DNA from: Sulfuricella sp.
GTDB lineage: Bacteria; Pseudomonadota; Gammaproteobacteria; Burkholderiales; Sulfuricellaceae
Assembly: GCA_028714315.1 (NCBI GenBank)
Contig: JAQTMN010000003.1
Coordinates: 1-64,000, forward strand
Direction of reading: 5' to 3'
DNA length: 64,000 nt
The position numbers and the translations under genes are program-made. Shown here piece by piece: positions 13,213 through 62,761 of this stretch (its first letter is position 1; each line of letters begins with the position of its first letter). Under the pieces are notes generated by a model. That model ran no database searches. It was not told the origin of the DNA and saw only the letters and a program-made list of their open reading frames with translations.

Positions 13213-13298
13213 TCCGAATAAATAACTTGCAGTTTAAACAAGCCATTCATTCCGCGACACTGCCCAAATGGGCTACGGCGCCAAACGACGGATAAAGT

Positions 13299-13692
13299 TG
13301 GTCGCGAAAAGGCACAAAAAGCACAAAAAGGTTTCTCCCTTCTCCCGCAGGCGGGATAACCATCGACTTGGCTGGCGTAGTAGTTTGCCAGCCTAGTCGA
13401 ATGGCTAGTAGTTCCATCAGAAGGGCCGGGGATGAGGGTGTTTGCGTCTTTGCAGGCATTAACCAAGCGCAAAGTCCCTCACCCCAACCCCTCTCCCTGC
13501 ACCCGCACGGAGTGGCAGCAAGCTGCACTCCGACTTTCTATCGACTAAAGTCGATGAAAGATCGTATGTCCCCGCCGGGTTCCCGCTGCTGCGCAGCGAC
13601 CACGGCGAGACGGGCGAGGGGCTATCGCGGGGTGTTCGAGTTTGGTCAGGGCAGGCTTTTTTTTTGTGTTTTTTGTGCCTTTTCGCGGCCAA
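13299..13692. repeat. Composite nested palindromic repeat cluster A
   Basis: Outer arms GTCGCGAAAAGGCACAAAAAGCACAAAAAG / CTTTTTTTTTGTGTTTTTTGTGCCTTTTCGCGGCC enclose host hairpins that are themselves interrupted at 13356..13418 and 13501..13612. Confidence 0.8.
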
Positions 13693-25683: not shown

Positions 25684-25698
25684 CCCTATGGAAAAAAA

Positions 25699-25858
25699 GC
25701 CCCTCCCCCGTCTCGCCGTGGTCGCTGCGCAGCAGCGGGAACCCGGCGGGGACATACGATCTTTCATCGACTTTAGTCGATAGAAAGTCGGAGTGCAGCT
25801 TGCTGCCACTCCTTGCGGGTGCAGGGAGAGGGGCTGGGGTGAGGGACTTTGCGCTTGG
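25699..25858. repeat. 160-bp composite repeat, inverted relative to 13463..13622
   Basis: Reverse complement matches 13463..13622 with about 3 mismatches by eye. Confidence 0.88.
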
Positions 25859-25937
25859 GCAACGCTTGCAGTGATGCAAACGCCCTCATCCCCGGCCCTT
25901 CTCCCGCCCACGGGAGAAGGGAGTCGGAGCAGTAACT

Positions 25938-29284: not shown

Positions 29285-31140
29285 GAGCCGGCCTCTTCTT
29301 CCGACCCATACTCCTTCAGCATTTTGAGGAACGATTCCCCGTAGCGCGCCAGCTTGGCCTGGCCGACGCCGCTGATCTGCCCCAGTTCGGCCAGGGTTCC
29401 CGGCTTGGCATTCAAAATTTCCAGCAAGGTGCTGTCGTGGAAGATCACGTAAGGCGGCACCCCCTGCTCGCGGGCGAGCTCCATGCGTTTGGCCTTGAGC
29501 GCGGTCCACAGCGGATCGTCGCTGGCGCCGGCGAAAGCTTCGCGCGCACGGGCGCCGCGCTCGGCTTTGCTGATTTTGCGCTTGGCCGGCTCGGCGTCGC
29601 GCCGCAGCCATACTTCCCGCTCGCCGCGCAGCACCGGGCGGGCGGCTTCGGTCAGGCGCAGGCCGCCGTAGGCTTCCATGTCCACCTCGAGCAGGCCGGC
29701 GGCGACCAGCTGGCGGTAGACGCTGCTCCATTGCGGCTGGCTCAAGGTTTGCCCGATGCCGAAGGTGGTGAGCTGCTGATGGCGGAATTTTTCGACCTGC
29801 GGCGTGGCTTTGCCGAGCAGCACGTCGATCAGGTGGCCGACGCCGAAGCGCTGGCCGGTGCGGTAGACGCAGGACAACGCCATCTGCGCGGCCTGGGTGG
29901 CGTCCCAGCTGTCCACCGGTTCGAGGCAGTTGTCGCACTGGGCGCAGCCGCCGGGATGTTCCTCGCCGAAATAGCGCAGGATCGCCTGATGGCGGCAGGC
30001 GGTGGATTCGCAGAAGCCGAGCAGCGCGTCGAGCTTGGCGAGTTCGACCCGCTTGCGCTCTTCCGGCGCGTCGCCGGAACTGAGCATCTGGCGCATCGAC
30101 ACCACGTCGCCCAGGCCGTAGGTCATCCAGGCGTCGGCGGGCAGGCCGTCGCGGCCGGCGCGGCCGGTTTCCTGGTAGTAGCCTTCCATGCTCTTGGGCA
30201 GGTCGAGGTGGGCGACGAAGCGCACGTTGGGCTTGTCGATGCCCATGCCGAAGGCGACCGTGGCGACCATGATCACGCCTTCTTCGCGCAGGAAGCGCTT
30301 CTGGTTGGCGGCGCGCACCGCGGCGTCGAGCCCGGCGTGGTAGGGCAGCGCGTCCCAGCCCTGTTCCTTGAGCCAGGCGGCGGTTTCCTCGACCTTCCTG
30401 CGCGACAGGCAGTATACGATCCCCGCGTCGTTGGCGTGCTCGGCTTCGAGAAAGGCTGCCAGCTGCTTGCGCGCATTGGCTTTCTGCGTGACGCGGTAGC
30501 GGATGTTGGGCCGGTCGAAGCTGGAGACGAACTGGCGCGCCTCGGCAAGCCCCAGCCGCTCGACGATCTCGCGCCGGGTCGGCGCGTCCGCCGTGGCGGT
30601 GAGCGCGATGCGCGGCACCGCCGGAAAGCGTTCGTGCAGCACCGTCAGCTCGCGGTATTCCGGCCGGAAATCGTGGCCCCACTGCGACACGCAGTGCGCC
30701 TCGTCGATGGCGAACAAGGCCAGGCCCGGCCCGGCTTCGACCTGTTCCAGCGCAGCGAGGAAATTCGCCATCAGCAGCCGTTCCGGCGCGACATACAGGA
30801 TATCCAGCTCGCCGCGCATCAGGCGGCCGAATACCTCGCGCCCTTCGTCGGCGGACAGGCTCGAATTGAGGAAGGCGGCCTTGACGCCGAGCTGGCGGAG
30901 GGCGTCCACCTGGTCCTGCATCAGCGCGATCAGCGGCGAGACGACGATGCCGACGCCGGCGCGCAGCAGGGCGGGAATCTGGTAGCACAGCGACTTGCCG
31001 CCGCCGGTCGGCATCAGCACCAGCGCGTCGCCGCCGGCCGCGACATGCTCGACGATGGACTGCTGCTCGCCGCGGAAGGAGGGGTAGCCGAAGACGTCGA
31101 GAAGAATGCGCTGGGCGGAAGTAGGCATCGAAATGGCCAA
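29281..31140 (-). CDS. recQ: ATP-dependent DNA helicase RecQ
   Basis: [60 protein letters not shown]-like C-terminus. Confidence 0.95.
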
Positions 31141-31272
31141 TGGGTAAAGCGCCTAGTTTACCAGCGCGCGCCGGCACGTTGCGGCAACTTTTGCGAAATG
31201 ACGGAGTCTACCGGTCGCGAATATTTACAGTACAATCGTCGCTTTCTAAATTAACCTAAAAACCTCATTTGA

Positions 31273-31401
31273 ACCACGGAGATCACGGAGACCACGGAGC
31301 AAAACAAAGCATTCGAGAAATGTCGAGCACTCACCCAGGTGAAACGCAAGCTCGTTGCAATATCTTGATTTTTCTCCGTGGCCTCCGTGATCTCCGTGGT
31401 T
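31273..31401. repeat. Inverted repeat GAACCACGGAGATCACGGAGaCCACGGAG...CTCCGTGgCCTCCGTGATCTCCGTGGTT
   Basis: Complementary arms between recQ and ccmA. Confidence 0.8.
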
Positions 31402-31442
31402 AACTGCTTTTTTTGGATTAGAACACCGTCTTGGGTACATCG

Positions 31443-32057
31443 ATGCTGGAAGGGAAAGACCTCACCTGCGTACGGGGCGAGCGCACGTTGTTCAGCCACC
31501 TGGATTTTGTCTTGCGCGAGGGCGAACTCTTGCTCGTTCAGGGCGCCAATGGCAGCGGCAAGACCAGCCTGCTGCGCATGGCGTGCGGCCTGCTGGCGCC
31601 GGAGTTCGGCGAAATCTCGTGGCGTGGCGAGAAGATCGGCGCGGCGCGCGAAACCTACCATGCCGAGATGATCTATTTCGGCCATGCCCCGGCCGTCAAG
31701 GAGGACCTGAGCGCGTTCGAAAACCTCGATCTGGCCTGCCGGCTCGCCGGCGCGCCAGCCGGGCGGGACGACGTGAAGGGCGCGCTGGGACACCTCGGCC
31801 TGGGCCACTGCCTGGATTTGCCGGCCAAATCGCTGTCGCAGGGGCAGCGCCGCCGCGTCGCGCTGGCCCGCCTGCTGCTCACCCGAGCCCGGCTGTGGAT
31901 ACTCGACGAACCGCTAACGGCGCTCGACCAGGCCGCCCTGCAACTGGTGCAATCCCTGCTCGGCGAGCATTTGTCGAAGGGCGGCATGGTCATGCTCACC
32001 ACCCACCAGCCGGTCGCGATTCCGGGCGTCGAGCCCAAGACGGTGCAATTGTGCTGA
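31443..32057 (+). CDS. ccmA: Heme exporter ATP-binding protein CcmA
   Basis: GANGSGKTSLLRMACGLL, SLSQGQRRRVALARL, LWILDEP; start of ccm cluster. Confidence 0.92.
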   Translation: MLEGKDLTCVRGERTLFSHLDFVLREGELLLVQGANGSGKTSLLRMACGLLAPEFGEISWRGEKIGAARETYHAEMIYFGHAPAVKEDLSAFENLDLACRLAGAPAGRDDVKGALGHLGLGHCLDLPAKSLSQGQRRRVALARLLLTRARLWILDEPLTALDQAALQLVQSLLGEHLSKGGMVMLTTHQPVAIPGVEPKTVQLC

Positions 32058-32066
32058 AGCAGAAAT

Positions 32067-32417
32067 TTAGCCGCGAAAAGGCACAAAATTCGCAAAAAGA
32101 AAACAGCCGCTCTTTTTTTGTAACGGCTCAGGTTGGTTTTCTTCCTTCTCCCGCATACGACTCCACGCGGGCTTCAGTCCGCAGTGGATCGGAGTCCTTT
32201 AGGGCAGGCGGGATAACCATCGACTTGGCTGGCGTAGTTTGCCAGCCTAGTCGAATGGCTAGTAGTTCCATCAGAAGGGCCGGGGATGAGGGTGTTTGCG
32301 TCACTGCAAACGTTGACTCTGTGCAAAGTCCCTCTCCCCAACCCCTCTCCCGCCTGCGGGCGAGGGGCTTTAAGCCGTTGGCTCTTTTTGTGGCTTTTGT
32401 GCCTTTTTGCGGCCAAG
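32067..32417. repeat. Composite nested palindromic repeat cluster B
   Basis: Outer arms AGCCGCGAAAAGGCACAAAA / TTTTGTGCCTTTTTGCGGC enclose host hairpins interrupted at 32155..32205 and 32213..32272. Confidence 0.85.
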
Positions 32418-32448
32418 AAAAAAGCTCATATTTTTCGGGGCATTGCGA

Positions 32449-33114
32449 TTGAACGCCATTTCCGCCCTGCTGCGGCGCGAATTGACGCTGGCCATGCGGC
32501 GGCGCGGCGACGTGCTGACCGTGCTGTTTTTCTTCGTCATCGTCGCCAGCCTGTTCCCGCTCGGCGTCGGGCCGGAGCCCAAGCTGCTGCGCCTGATGGG
32601 CGGCGGGGTGGTGTGGGTGGCGGCCCTTTTGGCGGCGATGCTTTCGCTCGGCCGGCTGTTCGCGGCAGACTATGCCGACGGCACGCTGGAGCAGCTGATT
32701 CTGACGCCAACGCCGCCGGTGGCATGGATTACCGGTAAAATACTGGCGCATTGGCTGGTGAGCGGGGTGCCTCTGATCCTGATGGCGCCGGTGCTGGGCA
32801 TCCAGTTCGGTTTGTCCGGCGCGGAACTGGCGGTGCTGATGTCGTCGCTGCTGCTCGGCACGCCGGTGCTGTCCCTGATCGGGGCGATTGGCGCCGCCCT
32901 GACGCTGGGCCTGCGCGGCGGCGGGGTGCTGGTGTCGCTGCTGGTGCTGCCGCTTTACATCCCGGTGCTGATCTTCGGCGCCGGCGCGGTGGACGGCGCG
33001 ATCTCCGGTTTGGGCAGCGAAGCGCACCTGTCACTGCTCGGCGGCATCCTGATCCTGGCGTTCATGCTGACGCCGTGGGCGGTGGCGGCGGCGTTGCGGA
33101 TATCCATTGAATGA
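32449..33114 (+). CDS. ccmB: Heme exporter permease CcmB
   Basis: LLRRELTLAMRRRGDVLTVLFFFVIVASLFPLGVGPEPKLLR; probable TTG start. Confidence 0.9.
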   Translation: MNAISALLRRELTLAMRRRGDVLTVLFFFVIVASLFPLGVGPEPKLLRLMGGGVVWVAALLAAMLSLGRLFAADYADGTLEQLILTPTPPVAWITGKILAHWLVSGVPLILMAPVLGIQFGLSGAELAVLMSSLLLGTPVLSLIGAIGAALTLGLRGGGVLVSLLVLPLYIPVLIFGAGAVDGAISGLGSEAHLSLLGGILILAFMLTPWAVAAALRISIE

Positions 33115-33121
33115 GAGGGAT

Positions 33122-33182
33122 TTGTAGGAGCGGCCTCCCGGCCGCGATACGCTGTTTCGCGGCCGGGAGGCCGCTCCTACGC
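33122..33182. repeat. Near-perfect hairpin TGTAGGAGCGGCCTCCCGGCCGCGA-loop-TCGCGGCCGGGAGGCCGCTCCTACG
   Basis: 25-bp complementary arms; second copy at 46304..46362. Confidence 0.9.
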
Positions 33183-33190
33183 CAATGTGA

Positions 33191-33937
33191 ATGATGAGCG
33201 GATTCAACCTGTACAAATATTCTTCTCCGGCGACCTTCTACGCCTTGGCCGGCCGGCTGATTCCCTGGTTCTACGGCGCGGCGGCGCTGCTCGGCGCAGC
33301 GGGGCTGTATGTCTCGTTTTTTCTGGCGCCCACCGATTTCCAGCAGAGCGAGGCTTACCGCATCATCTTCATCCACGTGCCGGCGGCGTGGATGTCGATG
33401 TTCATCTACATCGTGATGGCGGGCTGGGCGGCTTTGGGGCTGGCCTTCAACACCCGGCTGTCGTTCATGATGGCGAGCGCGCTGGCGCCGACCGGCGCCA
33501 TGCTGACCTTCGTTTCGCTGTGGACCGGCGCGCTGTGGGGCAAGCCGACCTGGGGCGCGTGGTGGGTATGGGATGCGCGGCTGACTTCCGAGCTGATCCT
33601 GTTTTTCCTCTATCTCGGCTTCATGGCCCTGCAAGCGGCGATCGACGACCCGCGCCGCGCCGACCGCGCCGGGGCGCTGATCGCGCTGGTGGGCGTGGTC
33701 AACGTGCCGATCATCTATTTTTCGGTCAAATGGTGGAACACCCTGCACCAGGGCGCTTCGGTGAGCCTGACCAAGGCGCCGAGCATGGCCGCCGTCATGC
33801 TGGCGGGGATGCTGGTGATGGCGCTGGCGGTGTGGATGTATGCCATCGCGGCGGCGCTGTCGCGGGTGCGCTGCATCATCCTGGAGCGCGAACGCAACAG
33901 CCAGTGGGTGGCGCAGATGCTGGAGGCGGAAGAATGA
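33191..33937 (+). CDS. ccmC: Heme exporter protein CcmC
   Basis: RIIFIHVPAAWMSMFIY, WGKPTWGAWWVWDARLTSELILFFLY. Confidence 0.95.
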   Translation: MMSGFNLYKYSSPATFYALAGRLIPWFYGAAALLGAAGLYVSFFLAPTDFQQSEAYRIIFIHVPAAWMSMFIYIVMAGWAALGLAFNTRLSFMMASALAPTGAMLTFVSLWTGALWGKPTWGAWWVWDARLTSELILFFLYLGFMALQAAIDDPRRADRAGALIALVGVVNVPIIYFSVKWWNTLHQGASVSLTKAPSMAAVMLAGMLVMALAVWMYAIAAALSRVRCIILERERNSQWVAQMLEAEE

Positions 33938-33955
33938 TCTCAAAAACGGCATTTC

Positions 33956-34034
33956 ACCGCGGAGGACGCAAAGGACGCAGAGGAAAAACAAAGCCTTTGA
34001 ATTCCTTCGTGTCCTTTGCGTCCTCCGTGGTTAA
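33956..34034. repeat. Inverted repeat CACCGCGGAGGACGCAAAGGACGCAGAGG ... GTGTCCTTTGCGTCCTCCGTGGTT
   Basis: Complementary arms between ccmC and ccmD. Confidence 0.8.
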
Positions 34035-34049
34035 ACAGGGGTTTTTTGG

Positions 34050-34232
34050 ATGAACTGGCAAACCTGGTCCGAATTCATTCACATGGGCGGCTATGCCCTG
34101 TATGTGTGGGGCTCGTTCGGCGTGACCGCGCTGCTGATCGCCGGAGAAATCGTGCTGTTGGGGGCGCACCGGAGAAAGGCGCTGACCTTGGCACGGCGCA
34201 CGGTCCAATATGGGAAGGCGGAGAGGTTGTGA
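34050..34232 (+). CDS. ccmD: Heme exporter protein CcmD
   Basis: 60 aa, [29 protein letters not shown]. Confidence 0.88.
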
Positions 34233-34245
34233 AAACTTCAAAATC

Positions 34246-34350
34246 TACCGCAAAGGCGCGAAGGCGCAGAGTTTACGCAAAGGAAATCTTTTTTATTTTA
34301 CTTGGGTTTTCTTTGCGAGTCCTTGGCGTCTTCGCGCCTTTGCGGTGGGG
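34246..34350. repeat. Inverted repeat ACCGCAAAGGCGCGAAGGCGC ... CGTCTTCGCGCCTTTGCGGT
   Basis: Complementary arms between ccmD and ccmE; similar structure at 40222..40312. Confidence 0.85.
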
Positions 34351-34380
34351 TTTCATTTTTTTTTACGGGCTTGGAGAACA

Positions 34381-43309: not shown

Positions 43310-43472
43310 CCCTTCTCCCGCATACGACTCCACATGGGCTTCAGCCCATAGTGGATCGGAGTCCTTTAGGGCAGGCGGGAGAAGGGCCGGGGATGAGGGT
43401 GTTTGCATCCCAGAAGCGTCGCCAAAGCGTGCACAGTCCCTCACCCCTGCCCCTCTCCCGCCTGCGGGAGAG
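43310..43472. repeat. Host repeat with 51-bp hairpin insert at 43322..43372
   Basis: CTTCTCCCGC[ATACGACTCCACATGGGCTTCAGCCCATAGTGGATCGGAGTCCTTTAGGGC]AGGCGGGAGAAGGGCC. Confidence 0.88.
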
Positions 43473-58921: not shown

Positions 58922-60158
<1,237 letters not shown>

Positions 60159-62483: not shown

Positions 62484-62661
62484 ACAAGCGCCCTTTCGCG
62501 TTCGCTCCCTCGCCCGCTTGCGGGAGAGGGTTGGGGAGAGGGCAAAACAAGCGCCCTTTCACGTTCGCTCCCTCGCCCGCTTGCGGGATAACCAGCGACT
62601 TGGCGGCTGTGCCGCCTAGTCGAATGGCTAGTAGTTGCATCAGAGGGTGGGGAGAGGGCAA
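62484..62661. repeat. Tandem duplicate of host repeat, second unit interrupted by 54-bp hairpin element (62588..62641)
   Basis: Unit 1 ...CGCTTGCGGG|AGAGGGTTGGGGAGAGGGC; unit 2 ...CGCTTGCGGG[54 bp]AGAGGGTGGGGAGAGGGC. Confidence 0.93.
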
Positions 62662-62761
62662 CGCCTGCAGCGATGCAAGCACCCTCATCCCCGGCCCTTC
62701 TCCCGCCTGCGGGAGAAGGGAGAAAACCAGCCTGAGCTGTTAGAAAAACCAAGGAAACAAC

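Follow-up and report, generated by a model that had tools for sequence, protein, structure and literature searches.

Two families of short hairpin elements inserted in one host hairpin of a MITE-like repeat in Sulfuricella

How does a single hairpin come to be interrupted by two other hairpins that differ from it and from each other? The question is raised by a block located between ccmA and ccmB, in the cytochrome c maturation cluster of Sulfuricella sp., where a host hairpin (H1) carries one element of 51 bp (E3) and another of 60 bp (E4). The window, that is, the whole stretch of 64,000 nucleotides that was analyzed, belongs to contig 3 of a draft genome (G000; 2.92 Mb in 148 contigs, 85% complete), for which a genome-wide catalogue was built from sequence searches and retrieved stretches. 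The locus comprises the following features.

32067-32100, no strand assigned: left arm (TTAGCCGCGAAAAGGCACAAAA...) of the outer inverted repeat O, which encloses the block; 85% complementary to the right arm.
32120-32379, plus strand: H, the MITE-like host element, with left end GTAACGGCTCAGG and right end AAGCCGTT; H1 holds two inserts and H2 is uninterrupted.
32144-32154, plus strand: 5' arm of the host hairpin H1 (CCTTCTCCCGC).
32155-32205, plus strand: E3, hairpin element of 51 bp with a 14-pair stem, inside the H1 loop.
32206-32212, plus strand: AGGCGGG, remnant of the H1 loop and inner portion of the 3' arm.
32213-32272, plus strand: E4, hairpin element of 60 bp inside the H1 3' arm (GGGA^GA), following CT in the REP-like reading direction.
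32273-32292, plus strand: remaining H1 3' arm and conserved downstream portion of H (AGAAGGGCCGGGGATGAGGG).
32342-32367, plus strand: H2, the second hairpin of H, here without an insert; other copies have E4 or E5 inside it.
32383-32416, no strand assigned: right arm of O, pairing with 32067-32100.

The locus is ordered as CTTCTCCCGC (to 32154), 51 bp, AGGCGGG, 60 bp and AGAAGGGCCGGGGATGAGGG, and the uninterrupted H1 hairpin is CCTTCTCCCGC-AG-GCGGGAGAAGG; the letters and coordinates of this double interruption are as the first-pass annotation had given them. Letters shared by host and element leave an ambiguity of 1-2 bases at the ends of E3 and E4. Nothing in Rfam reached its gathering score within 31000-33500. 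Other copies of these elements occur in the window.

13356-13418, plus strand: E4 alone (63-bp variant, TAG repeated in the loop) inside an H1 hairpin.
13498-13611, plus strand: E5 in the H2 of the H copy whose H1 carries E4 at 13356, with an E3-family element within (about 13515-13569).
43322-43372, plus strand: E3 alone inside an H1 hairpin.
62589-62642, plus strand: 54-bp variant of E4 within a tandemly repeated hairpin that serves as another host, present in one unit and not in its neighbor; common to the nearest relative.
62691-62722, minus strand: uninterrupted H1 hairpin of a truncated H element.

The first-pass annotation had placed the 51-bp piece alone at 43322, the 60-bp piece alone at 13356 and an intact host at 62691..62722. 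The first is indeed an E3-only copy and the second an E4-only copy, of 63 bp rather than 60, whereas the third is an uninterrupted hairpin in an H that is itself truncated and joined to another repeat; this hairpin is missing from the corresponding place in the nearest relative. The arrangement at 13498-13611, in which E5 holds an E3-family element, recurs as an inverted copy at 25698-25902, and the outer inverted repeat O (GGCCGCGAAAAGGCACAAA) is found empty once (58923-59006) and enclosing a filled H twice (13298-13692 and 32067-32416). Further long A+G-rich inverted repeats, belonging to other families, are found at 31272-31401, 33952-34035 and 34232-34361 (CCACGGAG..., CGCGGAGGACGC... and CCGCAAAGGCGCG...), near or inside the ccm gene region.

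The host element H is about 200 bp long, with ends fitting GTAACTACTCAGG...CCTGAGTAGTTAC; in it, H1 is followed by a middle portion (GGGATGAGGG...CCCTCACCCC) and then by H2 (CCCCTCTCCCGC..GCGGGAGAGGGG), both hairpins being rich in G+C. It has the terminal inverted repeats, the size class (70-300 bp) and the lack of coding capacity of a MITE, and is represented by about 50 copies in G000 vs. about four in G007, the nearest relative as judged by best protein match. The ends of E3 and E4 are constant across places, and the right flank of H gave 54 matches within 3 mismatches vs. 2 for a reversed control pattern; recurrence by chance is thus excluded. A terminal-repeat search for an autonomous parent of H returned H copies and collapsed forms, and no transposase was present at the two non-H1 loci inspected. 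Beside the block, the ccmA-ccmB ortholog is too diverged for a target-site duplication of H to be read and provides no clean empty site. In one intergenic region common to G000 (L053) and G007 (L341), H lies in opposite orientations, by independent insertion or by inversion.

The 50 copies of H display about 13 states, a count that includes one copy (L042) scored as E4 in H2 but belonging to another host repeat. Empty, E3-only, E4-only and double forms all exist, together with combinations that include a third insert, E5, in H2, and the proposal of two separate families, each with an exact insertion point, is borne out by this catalogue. Both hairpins are intact in 22 of the 50 copies (scripted count), with perfect short loops. 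H1 is filled by E3, by E4, by E3 plus E4 or by E3 plus a truncated E4; H2 is filled by E4, by E5 or by E5 holding E6; and mixed states have E3 in H1 with E4 in H2 (one H copy, L009) or E3 plus E4 in H1 with E5 in H2. As E6 belongs to the E3 family, at least four levels are nested (outer repeat > H > E5 > E3 family). The complete double insert is repeated at C50:22317-22485, in a second copy that is 94% identical, and a third copy, in which E4 is truncated, is found at C70:10523. In relatives, E3 apparently has E5 within its second small hairpin (CCCCTTG..; L140 in G005 and L163 in G001), so that nesting would be mutual among families.

The first-pass annotation also viewed E3 and E4 as site-specific families using one host palindrome. 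Each does have a fixed entry position; however, insertions are not confined to that palindrome. E4 occurs at about 23 places of the 2.9-Mb genome, with constant ends, and its hosts include several hairpin types, both arms of H2 and many non-hairpin sites, CT being the shared feature. In the reading direction GATGGAAC..ACTAGCCATTCGACTAG..., CT precedes 84 of the 106 copies with a clear leader, and in one copy (L008 of G000) the insertion point has moved by two bases and CT is adjacent again. The dinucleotide stands on one side of E4 only, its right end not being CT; an IS110-type core dinucleotide, which would be on both sides, was ruled out on this ground. Comparison of E4 by eye with the attC sites of integrons found the conserved attC boxes missing. 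The element was detected in at least 115 stretches of named genomes, mostly of Gallionella, Sideroxydans and Ferrigenium but also of Thiobacillus, Sulfuricaulis and Accumulibacter; dimers occur in named relatives (L198, L199, L275), with two different units head to tail and the second without leader.

E3 is found at about 22 places of the same genome, with the same ends throughout, one of the 22 catalogued (in L050) being spurious. It has entered four or more host hairpins, in their loops, as well as one coding gene and a tandem copy of itself, and its junction is followed by G and often preceded by T. Wherever an E3 copy is within a recognizable stem (score of at least 6), it is in the loop, both in G000 (11/11) and in G007 (6/6), whereas elsewhere in the genus about 12% of 17 copies are within a stem scoring at least 8 and the sites are mostly not hairpins; the strong loop preference is limited to G000 and G007. 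For E4, a stem scoring at least 7 spans the junction in 36% of 47 copies from named genomes that fit a strict pattern, vs. 2.8% of random CT sites. Taken together, the stem statistics of E3 and E4 indicate that hairpins are favored and not required.

The cleanest empty/filled comparison obtained is that of a gene encoding the periplasmic adaptor of an RND efflux system, in which an E3 copy lies in frame and adds about 19 residues (L034 1484-1541 on contig 63 of G000; L366 in G007). This gene is uninterrupted in seven members of the genus, which therefore provide an exact empty site for E3, whereas in G002 it carries a diverged version of the element. In G007 the insertion measures exactly 57 nt, with zero host letters lost, a single ambiguous T and no further target duplication.

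Single-strand folding of both E3 and E4 is well beyond that of shuffled sequence. In the 14-pair stem of E3, 5 pairs exhibit two-sided compensatory change over 18 copies, and in that of E4 two-sided changes affect 10 of 14 pairs over 78 copies in an alignment that was fitted to the structure and so favors such a result; 0 of 500 shuffles matched in either case. The alignments show that the hairpin has been kept in both elements, and the compensatory changes could reflect selection or hairpin-templated repair.

Between ccmA and ccmB, the block at 32.1 kb is wholly absent from G007, G002, G003, G005, G006, G009, G010 and G011 (spacers read) and from G014, of another genus. Among the E3 and E4 places retrieved from G007, few have flanks in common with the E3, E4 or H loci retrieved from G000, which implies a turnover of positions between species whose DNA is about 90% identical. 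Another shared site is the 62.5-kb tandem hairpin array, in which G000 has E4 in one unit and not in the next; the array consists of more units in G007, where the same E4 is found.

On this basis, and with moderate confidence, E3 and E4 are regarded as two unrelated families of non-autonomous, REP-like hairpin elements of 50-63 bp that would insert as exact units, the resulting composites then being copied and the inserts exchanged. Both would enter weakly specified sites without target duplication, E4 after CT and E3 before G. H may be a frequent landing place in that the loops of its hairpins are exposed as single strands, the target letters are available there and the intergenic DNA around them is dispensable; filled H would then be copied as a composite to new places (for instance, the ccmA-ccmB block), and inserts could pass between H copies by recombination, which would generate the combinatorial states. 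Insertion as exact units, the lack of target duplication, the short target motif, the imperfect hairpin and the in-frame insertion in a gene all recall REP-type elements and transposition through single-stranded DNA, for which a trans-acting enzyme of the HUH/Y1 type or similar is inferred; REP-like non-autonomous elements moved as single-stranded DNA are most likely.

Insertion is exact and has occurred several times independently, hosts are nested within hosts and the block is absent from relatives. The fixed ends, the combinatorial states, the in-frame E3, the filled and empty array units, the CT before E4 and the scatter of E3-bearing H copies (see below) speak for the explanation given here, as do the stems that span E4 junctions, the copy numbers of H in G000 and G007, the compensatory changes and the cleavage at CT documented for TnpA-REP. 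Against it stand the right end of E4, which is not CT, the loop preference of E3, strong in G000 and G007 only, the match between E3 subtype and host type (see below) and the enzyme search: neither the 7 Y1 matches of G000 nor the 36 of six relatives, inspected for all but six of the weakest, include a Y1/RAYT gene with E3, E4 or H at its flanks, and G044 combines 32 E4 matches with one weak Y1 match. Two RAYT-like Y1 genes of G000 (L100, L104) adjoin REP families of their own (TGTAGGAGCGGCC... and GTGGGTACGGCTTCAGCC...), copies of which also occur in the window (33123 and 46304; 12314 and 39208). A bolder version, in which E3 and E4 would be self-nesting palindromic mobile DNA that uses the extruded single-strand hairpins of other repeats as landing pads, is moved by an enzyme unlike RAYT and builds composites stepwise (O > H > E5 > E3 family), is considered doubtful.

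How many true insertions are needed is the point on which a competing account differs. Each element could have inserted once, or on a few occasions, into each type of host hairpin, the states arising from the copying of composite H and from recombination or gene conversion, with E3 and E4 now mostly passengers; this is possible, if less probable than not. The subtype of E3 matches the type of its host, with CCAC/GTGG in 9/9 H1 copies and CCGC/GCGG in other hairpin hosts (9:0 vs. 0:10, p = 1e-5), from which it follows that states have also spread by composites or conversion and not by fresh site-specific insertion each time; this association suggests that insertions were fewer and that composite copying or conversion played a larger part. 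In the same direction point the confinement of the E3 loop preference to G000 and G007, double composites of the same arrangement at non-orthologous places in two species and two loci of G000 (L392 and L395, on contigs 5 and 10) with a collapsed H of single hairpin, at least one of which joins the left arm of H1 to the right arm of H2 as if by recombination between both hairpins. However, separate insertions are needed for E4 in the two arms of H2 (5' arm in four copies, L007, L009, L024 and L029; 3' arm in one, L012), for E3 in the H1 of G000 vs. the H2 of one G007 copy whose H1 is empty, and for inserts in several unrelated hairpins and in the adaptor gene. Moreover, the E3-bearing copies do not form one group in the H tree, which scatters them with 7 changes (bootstrap range 7-9), although it is poorly resolved, with one well-supported branch, and too weak for counting gains. 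On the simplest reading, true insertions were limited in number and were followed by composite copying and exchange between H copies.

An account without transposition, in which replication forks stall at G+C-rich hairpins and template switching copies one hairpin into another via short shared letters, is improbable: the host hairpins are stable (-12.2 kcal/mol as DNA), element ends and host arms have a few letters in common, dimers and collapsed hairpins occur and the compensatory changes in the stems would fit hairpin-templated repair, but the identical ends across unrelated hosts and at non-hairpin sites, as well as the CT preference of E4, are against it. That the double-insert form is ancestral and the simpler forms are ragged deletions from it, the outcome that the first-pass annotation named as its refutation, is rejected as very remote, since the ends are identical in separate families that each occur singly in other hosts, intact hairpins with perfect short loops are found in 22 of 50 H copies and E3 is missing without footprint from the adaptor genes of seven relatives, while no support was found for it beyond the fact that deletions do occur in H (collapsed copies).

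Insertion of exact elements followed by composite copying thus leaves in one genome a natural record, with empty, single and double states, of the stepwise assembly of complex intergenic hairpins from small mobile palindromes. It makes two questions testable in bacteria, namely whether hairpins attract insertion of the single-stranded DNA type and what moves REP-like elements without a linked transposase. It also shows E3 entering a coding gene in frame, and elements lying between two cytochrome c maturation genes.

Among known systems, the GTAG REPs and BIMEs associated with RAYT (TnpA-REP) are like E3 and E4 in being short imperfect palindromes with many intergenic copies; the stem of E4 is preceded by an unpaired leader (...CTAG), target duplication is lacking and the CT that adjoins E4 recalls the cleavage of TnpA-REP at CT (PMC8266576). 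In contrast, E3 and E4 are longer (50-63 bp) and no conserved GTAG stands 5' of the stem, E4 having CTAG with a variable base three before the stem and E3 none; unlike in REPtrons, no RAYT gene is flanked by them, whereas the RAYT genes of G000 adjoin two other REP families. REPs of the CGTC group exist without a dedicated transposase, including in S. lithotrophicus (taken as Sideroxydans), and are defined by an unpaired CGTC tag at one end and a loop of 4-5 nt (PMC3733652); the tag is at neither end of E3 or E4. The palindromic elements of Rickettsia (RPE), cited in the same paper as palindromic repeats in frame within genes, resemble the E3 copy in the RND adaptor gene but differ in sequence and host group, and most of the E3 copies found are in other settings. 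Insertion sequences that target REPs (PMC1525189) likewise use palindromic repeats as landing sites; unlike E3 and E4, each of them is a complete insertion sequence that brings its own transposase. The mobile GC clusters of yeast mitochondria, for which the enzyme is not known, are also short palindromes rich in G+C, with rapid turnover, fusion into larger clusters and shuffling (PMC4478555), but they belong to organelle DNA, are unrelated in sequence and have a putative AG target duplication, none being seen for E3 and E4.

No description of the E3 and E4 families, of two inserts in one host or of the full set of states was found in the open-access literature, nor any literature on the repeats of Gallionellaceae, and the two families appear to be undescribed. 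Nesting of this general kind is already known, as REPs inserted within palindromic repeats have been reported in A. variabilis, T. roseum and H. neapolitanus (PMC3733652); the present case differs from these in having two families in one host hairpin, at least four levels of nesting and combinatorial states.
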